DNA of 27,935 nucleotides from a virus: IMG/VR virus record IMGVR_UViG_3300027816_000333, positions 1 to 27,935 of that record; one strand, written 5' to 3'. The translations under genes and the position numbers were made by a program. Shown piece by piece: positions 16,633 to 27,935 of this stretch (its first letter is position 1; each line of letters opens with the position of its first letter). Under the pieces are notes generated by a model. The model saw only the letters and a list, made by a program, of their open reading frames with translations, was not told the DNA's origin and made no database searches.

Positions 16633-16646
16633 TGTCAACTTTTTAT

Positions 16647-16657
16647 TGATAAATATT
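16647..16657 (-). promoter_or_regulatory. Late-promoter-like motif AATATTTATCA before the gp14-like gene
   Basis: On the minus strand AATATTTATCA lies 14 bases before ATG 16632, identical in sequence and spacing to the tape measure site. It would drive the gp14-gp15 pair. Confidence 0.42.
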
Positions 16658-16690
16658 AAAATTTTTGTTATTTTTAAAATAAAAGGTATT

Positions 16691-18457
16691 TTGGATATCG
16701 GACAACAACTAATAGAACACAAAGCTTTAGACTTACTCGGCGTGTATTCCGGGTCGAATAATTATATATTGTTTTTAAAAAACAAAAAAGAAACAAATAA
16801 AAAATTTTACCCGACTAGAACTCAAGCTGACTACATTGTAAATTATTTTGACACCATACCAAAAGTGGCTAGAAAATGGGTTGAGTTGGATACATACTTC
16901 GCACAAAAATTTTCAGAGGAAAAATATCTATTAAAGGTACCAGAAAAGGTATACGTAGAGAAACTTCTTGTTGAGAAAGATAAATCGTACCATATATGGG
17001 CTAAATTCTTTGAGGAGGATCAACTAAGTGAGTTTTGGGTTCCAAAATCATCACTAATTAAATCACAAACCACAAAGGACGTAACTATAGATTACTCAAA
17101 GTATTCACATAGACCACCCCTACAACATCAAAAAGAAGCGATTGAAAAACTTGTTGGGTCCAGAAGATATATTTTAGCTGACGATATGGGTCTTGGTAAA
17201 ACAACATCAACCATCATCGCAGCACTTGAAACAGGATCCAAAAAGATACTGATAGTGTGTCCAGCGTCGTTAAAAATAAATTGGCAGAGAGAGATCGAGA
17301 ATTATTCAGACAGAAGTGTTTATATCTGTGAAGGTAAGAAATTTTCAACCGAACACGATTTTGTTATTGTTAACTATGACATTATAAAAAATTTCCACGA
17401 TCCCAAGAATCCAAACGAGTCGTTAATTACTCAGTCAAATTTTGATTTGGTTATTATGGATGAAGCACACATGATTTCAAATACCCAAGCACAAAGAACC
17501 AAAGTTATTAATAATTTTGTGAAAGGAATTAAGTATGTTTGGTTATTGACTGGTACACCAATGACATCCAGACCTATGAATTATTATAATTTGTTATCGA
17601 TAATTGAAAGTCCGGTAGCTCAAAACTGGATGGCGTACGCCATAAGGTATTGTCAGGGATACCAATTCAGAGCTGGTAACAGGAAAGTATGGAATGTTTC
17701 GGGAGCCTCAAACCTGGAAGAATTACGTGACCGAACATCAAAACAAGTTTTACGACGATTAAAGGAGGATGTGTTGGATTTACCTGAAAAAATAATATCC
17801 CCAATTTATTTAAGATTAAAATCAAAAGAGTATGAGGAAGTTATGGGTGAATACTATGATTGGTATGATAAAAATCCAGACGAATCTTCATCGTTAACTG
17901 TACAGTTTTCTAAATTAATGAAGGTTAGAAAAATCATCGCGAATGAAAAAGTTAACCAAACAATTGAGATTGCTGAAAACATTATTGAACAAGGTAAGAA
18001 AGTTATTATTTTCACAAACTTTACAGACACACTCCAGTTAATACACAACCACTTCAAAAAAGAATCGGTATATCTTGACGGTAGTTGTTCAAAACAACAA
18101 AGACAACACTCCGTTGATCAGTTCCAGGAAAATGAAAAAATAAAAGTTTTTGTTGGGAATTTAAAAGCTGCTGGTGTTGGTTTAACTTTAACATCCGCTG
18201 AGGTTGTCATAATGAACGATTTGTCATTTGTACCGGCGGAACACTCCCAAGCTGAGGACAGAGCTTACCGATACGGTCAAAAGAATAATGTCATTGTTTA
18301 CTACCCCCTATTTGACAACACAATAGAAGGTATCATATATGATATATTAAATAATAAAAAACAAGTTATTAGAACCGTAATGGGTGATGGGGAAATAGAA
18401 CAAACTAGTGGTGACATGGTTGAGGAAATTTTAAATCTAATAAACAAACGTAGATAG
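16691..18457 (+). CDS. SNF2-family DNA helicase / translocase
   Basis: All main helicase motifs are present. Walker A is DDMGLGKTTS near residue 165, Walker B is MDEAH near 256, and motif III is LLTGTPMTSRP near 286. The second RecA lobe has KVIIFTNFTDTLQLI, then GNLKAAGVGLTLTSA and the SNF2 box QAEDRAYRYGQ near 525. This layout resembles SMARCAL1-type annealing or fork-remodelling enzymes, functionally like T4 UvsW. It is expected to translocate on duplex DNA in replication or recombination. The N-terminal 140 residues may form a small accessory domain. The start is uncertain because there is no ATG before the Walker A motif. I choose TTG 16691 (588 residues), preceded by AAAAGG; TTG 16646 would add 15 residues translated from spacer. 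Confidence 0.9.
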   Translation: MDIGQQLIEHKALDLLGVYSGSNNYILFLKNKKETNKKFYPTRTQADYIVNYFDTIPKVARKWVELDTYFAQKFSEEKYLLKVPEKVYVEKLLVEKDKSYHIWAKFFEEDQLSEFWVPKSSLIKSQTTKDVTIDYSKYSHRPPLQHQKEAIEKLVGSRRYILADDMGLGKTTSTIIAALETGSKKILIVCPASLKINWQREIENYSDRSVYICEGKKFSTEHDFVIVNYDIIKNFHDPKNPNESLITQSNFDLVIMDEAHMISNTQAQRTKVINNFVKGIKYVWLLTGTPMTSRPMNYYNLLSIIESPVAQNWMAYAIRYCQGYQFRAGNRKVWNVSGASNLEELRDRTSKQVLRRLKEDVLDLPEKIISPIYLRLKSKEYEEVMGEYYDWYDKNPDESSSLTVQFSKLMKVRKIIANEKVNQTIEIAENIIEQGKKVIIFTNFTDTLQLIHNHFKKESVYLDGSCSKQQRQHSVDQFQENEKIKVFVGNLKAAGVGLTLTSAEVVIMNDLSFVPAEHSQAEDRAYRYGQKNNVIVYYPLFDNTIEGIIYDILNNKKQVIRTVMGDGEIEQTSGDMVEEILNLINKRR

Positions 18458-18489: not shown

Positions 18490-19587
18490 ATGAAAGTTAA
18501 TGTCAAACATATTAAATGTGATATGTCTTCGGAAGATAGAAAATTAACCGACGACTTTATCAGATACCTACAGAAAAAAATTCCGATTAAACGTGAAATT
18601 ACCATAAATTTTGTTGGTGAAAGAATTGGTAGTATGTCAACTGGTGGTCACCACCCAGAACGAGGTATAAAAGTTCTAACAAAAAATAGATTAAACCGGG
18701 ACATATTAAGAACATTAGCTCATGAATGGGTTCACGAATACCAACGAGATGTTTTGAAACGTGAACGTGGTGAGGATATTGGTGGACAAAACGAAGACGA
18801 AGCTAACGCGTACGCTGGTCGACTGGTTAAAATGTTTGAAAGGGACTACCCACAATACGAAAATTTAGTTTATGAAAGTTTATATGGGGTTGAAAAAAAA
18901 CTTAACCTAATCAGTGAACAATTAGTGATTCAGGAAAAAACAAATTTAAGATCTGAATTACTTATGGAAATGAAAAAAATTGGTATAGAAAGATTACCAT
19001 ATTCATATTCATCAATGAGTCAATTTGTGGATCCAAAAACAATGGACATCCATTATAACAAACATTATAAAGGGTATGTTAAAAAACTTAATGACGCGTT
19101 GTCCAAAAAAAACTACAAAGGTGATTTAGAATTGGAAAGTATTATTAGAACCATAAGTAAGTATAACGATACAATTAGGAACAACGCTGGGGGTGCGTTT
19201 AATCACGCGTTGTTCTGGAAAATGTTATCACCAAAGAAACAAGTACCAAAAGGTGAAGTTTACGAGAAAATCACAAAACAATACGGGAATATTAAAAAAA
19301 TGAAAGATGAATTTGAATCGGTAGCTAAAGATCGATTCGGATCTGGATGGGTTTGGTTGGTATTAACCAAAACAAATAGATTGAAAATTGTATCTACACC
19401 CAACCAAGATAACCCATTAATGAATACAGTTAAAGATGGGGGGTACCCAATTTTAGGTTTAGATTTATGGGAACACGCTTATTATTTAAAATACCAAAAC
19501 AAACGTGATGAATATATTAAAAAGTTTTGGAATCACGTTAATTGGGGATTTGTTAATGAGTTATACCTTCTTAGAACAAAACAATAA
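18490..19587 (+). CDS. Fusion of an HExxH zinc metallopeptidase-like domain and a Mn/Fe superoxide dismutase
   Basis: One 365-residue frame holds two domains. Residues 1-130 contain LAHEWVHEYQ (H78, E79, H82) and, 20 residues on, EDEANAYAGRLV with E104, resembling the HExxH...E.EAN.FA pattern of IrrE/ImmA-type zincins. A helical linker spans about 130-168. Residues 169-365 are a full superoxide dismutase: LPYSYSS opening, DIHYNKHYKGYV, NNAGGAFNHALFW, GSGWVWLVL, NQDNPLM, LGLDLWEHAYYLKYQNKR and FWNHVNWGFV. Metal ligands H188, H239, D325 and H329 are all present, as are gate Tyr Y196 and Q306. The GGAFNH plus NQD pattern fits Mn-type or cambialistic enzymes; one of the paired histidines in KHH is Tyr here. 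It lies between the helicase and gp13-like gene. Whether it is virion-borne or intracellular is unknown. Confidence 0.9.
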   Translation: MKVNVKHIKCDMSSEDRKLTDDFIRYLQKKIPIKREITINFVGERIGSMSTGGHHPERGIKVLTKNRLNRDILRTLAHEWVHEYQRDVLKRERGEDIGGQNEDEANAYAGRLVKMFERDYPQYENLVYESLYGVEKKLNLISEQLVIQEKTNLRSELLMEMKKIGIERLPYSYSSMSQFVDPKTMDIHYNKHYKGYVKKLNDALSKKNYKGDLELESIIRTISKYNDTIRNNAGGAFNHALFWKMLSPKKQVPKGEVYEKITKQYGNIKKMKDEFESVAKDRFGSGWVWLVLTKTNRLKIVSTPNQDNPLMNTVKDGGYPILGLDLWEHAYYLKYQNKRDEYIKKFWNHVNWGFVNELYLLRTKQ

Positions 19588-19611: not shown

Positions 19612-20739
19612 ATGGCAATAATTCAAGAACCTGAAAGAAGTAAATTGTACACCCAAATAAGACATTTACTTGGTGCTCCACAAAGAAGTGTTGAGTTGGA
19701 GGACGAACAAATGGACACACTGTTGGAATTCTCAATCGATGAATATTCACAATACATCCAAGACTGGTTAATTGAATCCCAATGGACAAATTTATATAAT
19801 CTAAACATGGATACTCAGTCATTGTCAAGAGCGTTCACAACTAGAAGTTTAGATTATGAAACAAGATATACTTACGCTTATTCAAAAATAGTTGGTCTTC
19901 AGGCCGGTGGTGATTACGTTTTGAAAAAAGATTACATCCAATTAGTACCTAATCAACAAATATATGAAATCCCAGCTAATAGGGAATTAAATGAGTTACT
20001 TTGGTTTACACCAGCTGAGTTAAATAACACTATGTTTGACCCTTGGTCATTTGGTGCTTTAGGTGTCGGTGGTGGACTAGGTGGTGGTGGTGGACTAGCA
20101 CAGATGGGTAATATGGGTGGTAGTTACTTTATGATGCCGGTATTTGATATGTTATTACGAATGCAGGAAATTAACATTCAAAGAAGAATAATTGTTGGTG
20201 ATTTAACGTATAGAGTTACAGCTTTACCTGATGGTAAAAAAGCTATTCACTTAATGAATACACCAGGTGGTAAGTTTGACTTCGGTAACTCAACACTCAC
20301 TAGAGGTAAAGTTTGGTATTGGTATTATGACGTTGGTCCTGAAGATAGGGACAAATGTTTAAAATTAAATCCAGACATCATTACAATGCCATCTGACGTA
20401 CCGTTTGATAGGATGAGTTGGGTTGACTTAAATAACCCATCACAGATCTGGGTTAGAAGATGGTTTATTGCTTATTGTAAAGAAACTTTAGCTAGGGTAC
20501 GTGGTAAGTTTAGTGGGAATTTAAAAACTCCGGATGGTGATTTAACGATGGATTACACTTCATTAGCTACCGAAGCTAAAGATGAGAAAACAAAATTAAT
20601 CGAGGAACTTATTGGAGCTGAAGGTAGATTAACCAGACTTAAACCAGAAAAGGTTATGGAACGTGAGGCTTTAATCGCTGAAAATCTAAACAAATCAATG
20701 AAGTTTAGAGCAATGCCAAGTCAAATTTATGTCATTTAA
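19612..20739 (+). CDS. Neck / head-tail connector protein, gp13-like (tentative)
   Basis: The protein has 375 residues. The N-terminus (EPERSKLYTQIRHLLGAPQR, then EDEQMDTLLEFSIDEYSQYI, about 7-53) is the type of helical start I associate with gp13-like neck proteins and head-completion adaptors of large T4-like phages. Residues 110-125 (YIQLVPNQQIYEIPA) and 235-300 (RGKVWYWYYDVG, then WVDLNNPSQIWVRRWFIAYC) are probable beta and connector regions. The C-terminus is a charged helix (KLIEELIGAEGRLTRLKPEK). A striking Gly/Met-rich stretch of about 30 residues (around 142-172) probably forms a flexible loop. Its stop overlaps the next gene by 11 bases. T4 gp13 completes heads and forms the neck with gp14; the gp14-like gene here is 3 kb away and divergent. 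Confidence 0.6.
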   Translation: MAIIQEPERSKLYTQIRHLLGAPQRSVELEDEQMDTLLEFSIDEYSQYIQDWLIESQWTNLYNLNMDTQSLSRAFTTRSLDYETRYTYAYSKIVGLQAGGDYVLKKDYIQLVPNQQIYEIPANRELNELLWFTPAELNNTMFDPWSFGALGVGGGLGGGGGLAQMGNMGGSYFMMPVFDMLLRMQEINIQRRIIVGDLTYRVTALPDGKKAIHLMNTPGGKFDFGNSTLTRGKVWYWYYDVGPEDRDKCLKLNPDIITMPSDVPFDRMSWVDLNNPSQIWVRRWFIAYCKETLARVRGKFSGNLKTPDGDLTMDYTSLATEAKDEKTKLIEELIGAEGRLTRLKPEKVMEREALIAENLNKSMKFRAMPSQIYVI

Positions 20740-24109: not shown

Positions 24110-26836
24110 TTAAATCCAAGACATTTCAACCCCAGTCACATGAGCTGTCCATCTAATATTATCACTAGCAACCCCAGTCACTAAAATTTCTAATTGATCT
24201 AAAGTGTTATTTGCGGAAATAGAAACATTCCAAGCAGTATTATTTTCAACGTCGGTACCCACTGTTGAAACCGCCCCAATAAGTGTGGTGTTCCCACCAA
24301 CATTTTTAACAGCAACTTTTCTAATATAATGAGCTGAACAACCAACACCACATGGGAATGTTGCGTTTTCTTGAACAGCTGAAATTGATACCGTTAAAAA
24401 TAAAGCTTTACCACTAGGTACTGTTAACCCTACTGTACTTGTTGGGTAATCTAAAAATAATTTAGTTGGTGTTGCTGTATTAGTTTTATTTGAAAGTAAA
24501 AACTCTACCTTTTGATTATCTCCCGGATTTGAAAACGTACCTATCGATAAACTTTGTTGACCATATCTGGATGTTAAAGCACCACAACCATAAGCTGTAC
24601 TATATTCTGATTGTACTGTATTACATCTACCACCAATTATTGAACTATAAGTGGAATTTGAGGATATTCTATTTTGTATTCCGTTAATTATTGTACTATA
24701 ACAAGTCCCCCCAGATATAAAATTAAGTTGACCATTACCGATCATATTAACACATCCACCACTAAAAATGTAATTTAATGCACCACCGACAATTATACTA
24801 GAATTTGACAAAATTGTATTACAAACACCACCATTAATTATACCATATATCGATGAACAACTAATTGTATTATGTATACCACCATTAATTGATGACCCCG
24901 TTGTTCCTGTAAATACCGTATTTTTAGCCCCACTATTAATGTTTGAAAAACACGAGGATGATGCTACCGTGTTCCCACTACCCCCACCTATAAATCCATG
25001 ATCACCATTCAAACAGTTTGATACCCCACCACCAATAACACTATCCGTGGACATTACTGTATTTGTTGATCCACCACCAATAACAGATCTGGATCCTCTA
25101 AGGTTATTAAGTAATCCACCTAAAACTGAAGAATGGTTACCAATGTTTTGATTACTTTGACCACCAACAATAACACTACAACCACCTAATGATTGATTAC
25201 CTAAACCATTACCAACAAATGAATATTGACCGCAAGATTGATTACAATACCCACCAACAATTGATGAATAACAATTATCTGTTATGTTATTACAACCACC
25301 ACCAATAAATGAACAACAAGAGTTTAATTTGGTTAAGTTCTTTTCCCCTCCGGAAATGACAGAACTACCACCACATGATGTATTACAAATACCACCACCA
25401 ATCAAAGATTTTGTACCTGTTGACCATATTGTGTTTTTACAACCACCATTAATTACTGAACAAAAAGAGTACGATGTATTACATTCTCCACCACCTATCG
25501 TATTTAATACACCTTCACTGTAATTTAAAATACCACCAGATATTACACTCTTTGAAGTAGGACACATTATTTTATTTTGACATCCACCACCAATTACTGA
25601 ACAATCACTAGTCCCCCAAATTGTGTTTAAACACCCACCAGCAATTGTACCATTAGTGGATAAGATGGTGTTGTCATTTCCACCACCAATAACAGCCCCT
25701 CCAGACGATACCCAAACCACATTTGAATTACCTCCGTTTATGGAACTAACCGTTCCCTCAGATACATTAAAAATTCCACCGGTAATAACCGAACCAATAC
25801 CATTTGATGTAATAATGTTTCCACTACCACCACCAATATTACCACCGGTCTCGATTGTGTTATTATCACCACCACCGATTGTTGACAAAGTACCAATCGC
25901 AGTATTAGAACCACCGCCAGCTATGACTGAACATCTACCGTTTGATGTGTTTGATATTCCACCACCAATTACCGAAAAACAAACTGAAGCGGTATTACAA
26001 TACCCACCACCGATTGTTGTGGAACAACCTACAGATGTGTTATAATACCCACCAGTCACGTTACTATATATAGTATAAGAGGTATTACCCTCACCACCAA
26101 GTACTGAAGAACAATCACCAAAAGAATTAGAATTTACATTTATTCTTTGTGTGGAATTAATACCAGTACCAACCTCATGTAAAATGTCTATCCCAGCTAT
26201 TGATGCCGTAGTTGTTTGTGTATTTAAATCTAATGTACCAGTTGTTATGTCATAAGTTCCACCAGTTACATAGTGATCTGTATACCCAGTCACAAATCCG
26301 GTTACAGTAAATGTACCACCAGTACTGTTTGTAAATTCAACATCGCCAGTATTTAAATCGTAAGTACCTCCTGTCACAAAAGTATCACCAAGTAAAGGCA
26401 ACAGACTTACAGTATCACTAAACCCATCATTTCTAGTTATTGTCAAATCCATCGCTGGAGTTTGGAATGTTAGTCCAGTGAAATATGTGTCAGTAAATCC
26501 AGTTATGAGAAAATTACTACCATCATTATTTGTTAATGTTAATTCTTCGGTAATGTCATTATATGACCCACCGACAACGTATTGGTATCCAGGTATAGTT
26601 ATCGTACCACCGGTTGAGTTATTTAATTGTAGTAATCCTGAAGATGGGAAATATGTCCCACTTACAATATCCCCGCCAGAAGTAACCCCACTTAAAACAT
26701 AAGGTAAAAACTGACTTAATGGTGTATGTTTTGTCGTACCACTAAATACATCATAGTTTACTATAGCTATTATGTCATTAGTTGTGTAGCCTGTGTTCCC
26801 AACGTAAGGTAACTGTGATATTCTTTTATCTGCCAT
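24110..26836 (-). CDS. Tail fibre / adhesin with YadA-like head repeats
   Basis: The protein has 908 residues in four parts. Residues 1-50 (ADKRISQLPYVG, then NDIIAIVNYD and GTTKHTPLSQFLP) form a probable virion-attachment module, also present in shortened form in the next fibre. Residues 85-205 hold repeats of the form GGTYDxxTGxxxFTNSTGGTFTVTGF. Residues 243-755 hold about 25-30 repeats around (S/V)(V/I)IGGGxxNT, of the kind found in YadA/Hia trimeric adhesin heads, predicted to stack as a left-handed beta-roll. The C-terminal 145 residues end in a beta domain (PSGKALFLTVSISA, then IRWTAHVTGVEMSWI) that may bind the host surface. About 30 cysteines lie almost entirely in the repeats, which is odd for a cytoplasmically assembled fibre. 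No chaperone-domain motif is obvious. Confidence 0.88.
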   Translation of the reverse strand: MADKRISQLPYVGNTGYTTNDIIAIVNYDVFSGTTKHTPLSQFLPYVLSGVTSGGDIVSGTYFPSSGLLQLNNSTGGTITIPGYQYVVGGSYNDITEELTLTNNDGSNFLITGFTDTYFTGLTFQTPAMDLTITRNDGFSDTVSLLPLLGDTFVTGGTYDLNTGDVEFTNSTGGTFTVTGFVTGYTDHYVTGGTYDITTGTLDLNTQTTTASIAGIDILHEVGTGINSTQRINVNSNSFGDCSSVLGGEGNTSYTIYSNVTGGYYNTSVGCSTTIGGGYCNTASVCFSVIGGGISNTSNGRCSVIAGGGSNTAIGTLSTIGGGDNNTIETGGNIGGGSGNIITSNGIGSVITGGIFNVSEGTVSSINGGNSNVVWVSSGGAVIGGGNDNTILSTNGTIAGGCLNTIWGTSDCSVIGGGCQNKIMCPTSKSVISGGILNYSEGVLNTIGGGECNTSYSFCSVINGGCKNTIWSTGTKSLIGGGICNTSCGGSSVISGGEKNLTKLNSCCSFIGGGCNNITDNCYSSIVGGYCNQSCGQYSFVGNGLGNQSLGGCSVIVGGQSNQNIGNHSSVLGGLLNNLRGSRSVIGGGSTNTVMSTDSVIGGGVSNCLNGDHGFIGGGSGNTVASSSCFSNINSGAKNTVFTGTTGSSINGGIHNTISCSSIYGIINGGVCNTILSNSSIIVGGALNYIFSGGCVNMIGNGQLNFISGGTCYSTIINGIQNRISSNSTYSSIIGGRCNTVQSEYSTAYGCGALTSRYGQQSLSIGTFSNPGDNQKVEFLLSNKTNTATPTKLFLDYPTSTVGLTVPSGKALFLTVSISAVQENATFPCGVGCSAHYIRKVAVKNVGGNTTLIGAVSTVGTDVENNTAWNVSISANNTLDQLEILVTGVASDNIRWTAHVTGVEMSWI
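24560..26110 (-). repeat. Protein-level repeat block of the fibre (IGGG..NT units)
   Basis: Degenerate repeats of roughly 14-24 codons share a core encoding IGGG or INGG, followed two residues later by NT or N. DNA identity between units is low except for the core, so the array is old and diverged rather than recently amplified. Limits are approximate. Confidence 0.8.
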
Positions 26837-27502: not shown

Positions 27503-27935
27503 TTATATTGGGTTATTATATTTTAAGTAATTGTTTAAACCCACATTTAGATACGTATCACTGCCAACTATAATTGGATCGATAATATAATATGTGGATG
27601 TTGGGGTTACAGTTGGGGTTGGTGTTATAGTATTTGTTGGTGTTACGGTAGGTGTTACAGTTGGTGTTACAGTTGGTGTTATAGTATTTGTTGGTGTTAC
27701 GGTAGGTGTATTTGTTGGTGTTACGGTAGGTGTATTTGTTGGTGTTACAGTTGGTGTTATAGTATTTGTTGGTGTTACAGTTGGTGTTACAGTTGGTGTT
27801 ATGGTATTTGTTGGTGTTACAGTTGGTGTATTTGTTGGTGTTACAGTTGGTGTTACAGTTGGTGTTACAGTTGGTGTATTTGTTGGCGTTACAGTTGGTG
27901 TATTTGTTGGCGTTACAGTTGGTGTTACGGTAGGT
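27503..27935 (-). CDS. Thr/Pro-repeat protein, C-terminal part (partial, N-terminus beyond right edge)
   Basis: An open frame on the minus strand enters from the right edge and ends at TAA 27503-27505, giving 143 visible residues. About 110 of these are a T-x dipeptide repeat (x is mostly P, V, N or I, as in [12 protein letters not shown]). The last 33 residues are non-repetitive: [20 protein letters not shown] followed by [11 protein letters not shown]. The strand is chosen because it matches the neighbouring fibre genes, has a normal C-terminal domain and stop, and resembles the Thr/Pro linker inside the sheath protein. It is probably the linker and tip of a fibre or surface protein. The stop lies 12 bases before the next gene's ATG at 27490, so the two are likely co-transcribed. 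Confidence 0.72.
27600..27935. repeat. Near-perfect short tandem repeat tract (12-bp units)
   Basis: The plus strand shows repeated GGTGTTACAGTT and GGTGTATTTGTT type units running to the window edge. Units differ by only a few bases, implying recent expansion by slippage or recombination. Because units are multiples of three, gains and losses keep the frame of the Thr/Pro protein. Confidence 0.92.

Follow-up and report, generated by a model that had tools for sequence, protein, structure and literature searches.

The window analyzed here, a stretch of virus DNA of 27,935 nucleotides, contains a gene (18490–19587, + strand) that raises the question of why a phage joins a metallopeptidase-like domain to a superoxide dismutase (SOD), and what becomes of the joined product. 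The gene starts with ATG and encodes 365 aa without an internal stop up to its stop codon, as the first-pass annotation had stated when it described a single frame joining an HExxH domain to a complete SOD. A scan of IMG/VR with the fusion protein gave 342 relatives, and the best 80 of these were retained for analysis. Zincin and SOD lie in a single open reading frame (ORF) at all 80 kept loci, so that the domain pair first seen in one sequence recurs in viral metagenomes. These best 80 relatives are 66–100% identical to the fusion protein and all match it from residue 1 to at least residue 362; four other records among them encode a 100% identical protein. The HExxH residues and the SOD ligands are invariant in 25 representatives below 92% identity, and both halves are under purifying selection (dN/dS of 0.04–0.23 for the zincin and 0.02–0.07 for the SOD in 12 pairs). 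The fusion is real and conserved, and its SOD site is intact. Modelled at full length, the fusion protein has a pLDDT of 74.2. In one fusion copy (L246:2809-3804), the beginning of the SOD with the H188 region is lost through an in-frame deletion.

The C-terminal half (residues 161–362; 18970–19575, +) is placed in the Fe/Mn SOD family by Pfam, by sequence matches in the PDB and by its fold. Two Fe/Mn SOD Pfam domains, Sod_Fe_N (PF00081; E 2.4e-19, 70 bits with a curated cut-off of 27) and Sod_Fe_C (PF02777; E 2.3e-39, 134 bits with a curated cut-off of 20.9), cover residues 167–247 and 253–357. The NCBIfam equivalog SOD [Mn] (NF008177) is matched strongly at 197.9 bits, below its own cut-off of 363, and PHROGs gave no SOD match for the fusion protein, just two weak hits. 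The closest solved structure is the MnSOD of Sphingobacterium sp. T2 (6gsc), with 44% identity over the SOD domain. The metal ligands H188 (19051–19053), H239 (19204–19206), D325 (19462–19464) and H329 (19474–19476; all +) are, together with Y196, G235 and Q306, invariant in 61/61 distinct fused and 41/41 distinct unfused phage SODs, a count from which ten ORFs with a partial SOD (L246 among them) were left out beforehand. All SOD residues named in the first-pass annotation (H188, Y196, H239, Q306, D325 and H329) are thus borne out. We take G235 and Q306 to fit the pattern of Mn-type SODs, and the phage enzyme appears, by its residues, to be of the Mn type. With three His and one Asp as ligands, it is a predicted dismutase.

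The N-terminal half (residues 1–129; 18490–18876, +) is identified as a zincin by its structure model and by zincin matches in the PDB; a Pfam search placed these residues in no curated family above its cut-off. In the HExxH motif H78-E79-W-V-H82 (18721–18735, +), recognized as such from the start, H78, E79 and H82 are invariant in 146/146 distinct domains. The third zinc ligand, previously given as E104, is very probably E102 (18793–18795, +), since this Glu is present in 146/146 distinct N-domains and position 104 is Glu in just 108 of the 146; a set of 73 sequences gives the same picture. The model of residues 1–129, built from 73 sequences (pLDDT 92.4, pTM 0.89), has E102 near the start of helix 100–119, and the H82–E102 spacing of 19 residues presumably resembles that of gluzincins. 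In a fold comparison with the PDB, the model matched the YbeY-type structure 1oz9 (Z 9.8), M1 aminopeptidases (up to Z 8.9; 7v9n, Z 8.9) and Wss1 (5xbv, Z 8.7); the matches to 1oz9, 7v9n and 5xbv span 107–113 residues with an rmsd of 2.9–3.2. Foldseek alone gave no match for the model at E 0.001. Pfam searches with 73 family members matched DUF6055 in 33 (best E 5.7e-8), SprT-like in nine and M76 in seven, and the PHROG ‘metallo-protease’ was matched by ten of the 73 (best E 1.2e-6). The sole match of the window’s own domain is M76 (E 0.017, below its cut-off). Assignment of the model to a single zincin family was rejected, as the family matches are not separable. With an HExxH motif, a third ligand on the next helix and a zincin fold in the model, residues 1–129 are assigned to the zincin superfamily as a predicted peptidase.

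The fusion gene is preceded by a conserved SNF2/phrog_62 DNA helicase (16646–18457, +; profile matches and locus comparison) and followed by a conserved head-tail adaptor (phrog_211; 19612–20739, +; PHROG match and locus comparison), beyond which comes DNA polymerase B; genes for sheath, tube and hub are close by. The earlier statement that the gene lies inside the morphogenesis region agrees with the adaptor downstream and with the nearby sheath, tube and hub, but not with the helicase upstream or the polymerase behind the adaptor. A late-type motif had also been ascribed to the gene; the exact T4 late-promoter string TATAAATA was not found just upstream on the gene’s strand, and its nine exact copies in the window, with 6.56 expected, are no enrichment. 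Elsewhere in the window, a 908-aa protein (24110–26836) contains many imperfect glycine- and asparagine-rich repeats, and a long repetitive protein (27503–27934) lies at the window’s end.

Both halves also occur apart. An unfused SOD occupies the locus position of the fusion, in the order helicase-SOD-adaptor-polB. The scan with one such protein (L302) gave at least 596 relatives, of which 80 were kept; together with L302 and L303 they form 82 ORF records, equal to 81 places because L302 and L308 are one place in one contig. No zincin was found in the loci of these 82 ORF records. The helicase lies directly upstream in 76 of the 81 records having a helicase, and adaptor, p119 and polymerase surround the unfused SOD. 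In a T4-like jumbo-phage lineage, an Fe/Mn SOD is thus a regular gene between the helicase and the head-tail adaptor, which in the window’s sublineage is fused behind a small zincin.

Using the zincin homologue of Synechococcus phage S-SRM01 as query, we found 129 relatives and kept the best 80; SOD is absent from the locus in 80/80. On its own, the zincin is a small protein encoded by phages. Among 79 loci (L214–L292), 41 are SOD-fused (several being contigs already present in the fusion-protein scan), 37 lack a SOD in the locus, and in the remaining one (L250) zincin and SOD are neighboring, overlapping ORFs in different frames, with the SOD preceded by a 30-residue leader of the kind described below. 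This split is a single record and may be a sequencing frameshift. In nine of the 37 SOD-free loci (L223–L230, L235) the zincin has a different C-terminal fusion partner, ParB-like as judged by eye, the [IL]xE motif discussed below not being present in all linkers to this domain; in G021 a gene of the ParB-like type follows the zincin as a separate ORF (L392).

A SOD was found elsewhere in two of 18 contigs with a zincin and without the fusion, contigs that may be incomplete. Conversely, the zincin was sought in 12 contigs (11 with an unfused SOD, and G041 from the zincin-only scan) and found in six, namely four contigs of at least 317 kb, G018 and G041. The zincin is thus present in 4/4 contigs of at least 317 kb with an unfused SOD, about 172 kb from it; as the SOD is identical in three of these, the four count as two lineages. 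In G018 the distance is about 157 kb, and the six contigs where no zincin was found are 105–200 kb long. The separate zincin gene of G021, G034 and G018 lies among auxiliary genes and not among recognizable head genes. From these comparisons, the fusion joins two genes that are kept apart in sister phages. The event may have been the joining of two phage genes or the splitting of an existing fusion: a quick SOD tree (33 fused, 12 unfused and 8 cellular rows) splits phage from cellular SODs (SH-aLRT 99) and requires one change for the fusion, on a weakly supported branch (14), and gives no direction.

The two halves are connected by a linker (residues 130–160; 18877–18969, +) whose residues 130–155 have a pLDDT below 50. 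This linker corresponds to the unfused SOD’s own leader, which is about 30 residues long (33 distinct leaders). The unfused leader ends with [IL]xE right before the equivalent of M161 in 82/82 ORF records (81 places; the 80 kept of at least 596, plus L302 and L303). Likewise, 56 of 58 distinct fusion linkers end with [IL]xE before M161, the exceptions being one VSE and L246 with its deletion. In the window this candidate prohead-protease-like site is L158-M159-E160 (18961–18969, +), directly before M161, with residue 159 variable in the comparison of leaders and linkers. A second candidate site, I141-S142-E143 (18910–18918, +), follows the pattern [IL]xE[QENKD] in the middle of 58/58 distinct linkers and was not found in the unfused leaders compared. 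This comparison left out linkers not ending in E (1/58), which hides the VSE ending, and collapsed near-identical sequences; the 56/58 and 82/82 counts are free of this filter. Leader and linker alike thus end in the motif of the T4 gp21 prohead protease, a likeness of motif read from sequence. The propeptide-like stretch is N-terminal in the unfused SOD, whereas in the fusion it is internal, behind the zincin. Hydrophobic positions are regularly spaced in leader and linker, and a coiled coil is an equally good reading of the leader. E160 is also the first residue of an invariant block (160–162, 164–166, 169–174) and may be conserved for the sake of the SOD fold. A tblastn search with the leader peptide against 50,697 phage records gave no match even at E 10, possibly a limit of the short query, and we found no mention of the letters RLTESDL in the open-access literature.

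In many fused members the SOD is followed by an extra module, of which there are several kinds. An [IL]xE within 25 residues behind the SOD was found in 34/34 distinct tails (29% of background windows), and a stricter motif in 28/34 (6.8% of background). The tails are related within types, giving an effective number of about five by eye, and loci, leaders and tails share descent, so that these counts overstate the independent cases. About five types of module were distinguished by eye (L042–L080, L250–L289, L302, L303). Two of them show a conserved E...D...QxKP pattern like that of PD-(D/E)xK nucleases, a profile match links two tail types, and no convincing match for a nuclease identity was found in Pfam, PHROG or PDB. 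A separate gene with a leader-like start MRKMKIMLSESQYF (L079:1635-2639) lies one gene away from the helicase; its match to RE_MjaI (MjaI restriction enzyme) is sub-threshold (E 0.0054, 17 bits with a cut-off of 22.7). Five proteins gave no match in a library of defence systems.

The reading that we favor, to which we would give slightly less than an even chance, is a head-packaged precursor that is cut in the prohead and ejected with the DNA. The leader or linker would be a propeptide bringing the protein into the prohead core, where a gp21-type protease would cut after [LI]xE, between E160 and M161 and possibly also at E143 and at the sites behind the SOD. Zincin, SOD and nuclease-like module would each become a small enzyme of its own, packaged along with the DNA and delivered to the host by ejection; there the SOD would remove superoxide as infection begins, and the zincin would cut some protein. 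A cleaved precursor is likelier than a two-headed enzyme, given that sister phages encode the halves separately and that the linker is the counterpart of the SOD’s leader; cutting by gp21, packaging, ejection and enzyme activity are what we infer from this arrangement.

The window’s own record is a 27.9-kb fragment, and gp21 and gp23 are known from its relatives: a gp21-type protease (PF03420) is encoded in six and a gp23-type capsid protein (PF07068) in seven of 12 large contigs. Six gp23 sequences contain LINE|AT near residue 60 (FLINE in five, HLINE in one; two look identical), and T4 gp23 loses 65 residues at the corresponding point according to a passage of PMC9958956. T4 gp21 cleaves after L/I-X-E, and internal proteins have propeptides for targeting, as described in sections of three papers (PMC9026906, PMC9958956, PMC3012670), and ejected head proteins of the giant phage SPN3US are cut by the prohead protease, as stated in part of PMC10052503. 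The first-pass suggestion that the protein may be packaged thus gains indirect support from the T4-type prohead-protease motif ending leader and linker and from relatives encoding gp21 and gp23, and still concerns a candidate.

Leaders of this type are not confined to the SOD. A strict leader motif of the type MKKVIRLTESDLTRIVKRVINE was found in 15/386 ORFs of G001 (L100–L115) and 10/373 ORFs of G002 (L116–L130), with 0.18 and 0.26, respectively, in shuffled proteins. In 24 of these 25 ORFs it is N-terminal or nearly so, with different bodies behind it, and each leader ends by eye with [IL]xE, like a capsid-targeting propeptide. Neighboring genes in L392 and L394 also have leader-like N-termini, e.g., MNLQENINRIKEVMGINES and MRDLIRRILREE. 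Proteome-wide enrichment of N-terminal [IL]xE (2.14 and 1.70, with 1.42 in a cyanophage control; 1.75 and 1.51, with 1.47, after correction for composition) was barely above the control and was dropped as proof of packaging. A broader proposal, tentative and with the balance against it, is that short N-terminal [LI]xE leaders are a general modular packaging tag loading many unrelated proteins into the head, and that the SOD gene encodes a polyprotein of ejected zincin, SOD and PD-(D/E)xK-like nuclease, freed by the prohead protease and acting on the host’s oxidative state at entry.

Against a packaged precursor, the zincin has no [IL]xE leader at its own N-terminus and T4 targeting sequences are N-terminal, the separate zincin is not found among recognizable head genes, [IL]xE is a short and common motif, and the E143 site was not found in unfused leaders. 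The serious rival is a cytoplasmic auxiliary enzyme, quite conceivable though short of probable: the SOD would lower superoxide during replication, the zincin would be an independent intracellular peptidase, the join would give 1:1 expression or a scaffold, the linker would be flexible or a coiled coil, and nothing would be packaged. Zincin-free Fe/Mn SODs in jumbo phages of the PA5oct/MIJ3 group, the non-virion neighbors helicase and polymerase, the regular hydrophobic spacing in leader and linker and the auxiliary surroundings of the separate zincin are all in its favor. It does not by itself explain why both architectures preserve an [IL]xE end precisely where the SOD begins, nor why [IL]xE recurs before different C-terminal modules.

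We consider it improbable that the intact two-domain protein is an IrrE/PprI-like stress regulator, in which the zincin would cut a repressor and the SOD would be a coupled antioxidant arm. The zincin fold does resemble PprI (8sln, Z 6.8), and 11 of the 73 family members weakly match Pfam M78 (PF06114; best E 1.6e-4), but YbeY, M1 aminopeptidases and Wss1 outscore PprI, DUF6055 matches more members (33/73), the window’s own domain has no M78 match up to E 0.1, and in sister phages each half has a gene of its own. Comparison of residues 1–130 with M78/IrrE and other zincins, as the first-pass annotation had in mind, thus supports a zincin fold and not an M78/IrrE identity, which the domain does not demonstrably have. 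An assembly, frameshift or contamination artefact is so improbable that it hardly counts: fused relatives were found in metagenomic contigs only and none of 29 matching phage records in an annotated collection covers 80% of the fusion protein, but the identical join recurs at all of the best 80 of 342 loci over 66–100% identity, helicase and adaptor adjoin it wherever the flanks reach that far, and the tree separates phage SODs from eight cellular ones.

The host probably belongs to the Bacteroidota. The SOD was matched in 61/61 genomes of this phylum, the one compared (top rows 44–48% identity, highest 50%), and a Flavobacteriales MAG contig with otherwise bacterial-looking genes has a zincin homologue (45% identity) at its edge. 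A G001 protein next to gp23 resembles, as we assume from its motif, a T9SS cargo. The freshwater contig MW462191, which contains a SOD, was set aside; its neighbors look bacterial.

Within the sections consulted of the open-access literature on phage SODs, SOD with metalloprotease, virion SODs and freshwater-phage SODs, no description of a zincin-SOD fusion was found, and we regard it as a new domain architecture built from known families. In part of a Microcystis bloom study, Fe/Mn SOD is given among virus genes (PMC12542629); term searches found a bacterial SOD list in PMC13059738 and no ‘dismutase’ in PMC5332604. If packaged, the protein would be an antioxidant enzyme delivered by a phage along with its genome and a multi-enzyme precursor processed by a head protease, and its leader would be a simple tag predicting which of the phages’ many uncharacterised proteins enter the host. 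Packaged or not, SOD is a syntenic gene regularly present in a large group of jumbo phages, which makes the role of superoxide in phage infection testable.

Among known systems, YbeY, M1 aminopeptidases, Wss1/SPRTN and PprI/IrrE share with the phage zincin the overall fold, the HExxH helix and a next helix with a Glu, but the sequence identity is 9–19% in the listed rows. The Mn-type SOD 6gsc of Sphingobacterium sp. T2 has the fold of the phage SOD, whereas the phage protein is viral and carries a leader or linker, a zincin and often a C-terminal module. The Pseudomonas jumbo phages of the PA5oct and MIJ3 group also encode an Fe/Mn SOD, with 27.5% identity; query residues 155–359 alone are matched and the zincin is unmatched. 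A term search of the main text of the MIJ3 paper found no mention of this SOD (PMC6892783). A packaged viral SOD would have a precedent by analogy in chlorovirus PBCV-1, whose Cu/Zn SOD (A245R) is reported, in a passage of PMC7019647, to be virion-packaged and tied to lower superoxide in infection; that enzyme is unrelated and from an algal virus, and the passage mentions no fusion. A parallel to the proposed processing is offered by the propeptides of the T4 internal proteins IPI-IPIII and Alt, which likewise end in L/I-x-E (PMC9026906, in the part consulted), and relatives of the window’s phage encode T4-type gp21 and gp23. In contrast to these proteins, the SOD leader has about 30 residues rather than 7 (Alt) or 10 (IPIII), and the candidate cargo, recognized from its sequence, would be a superoxide dismutase.
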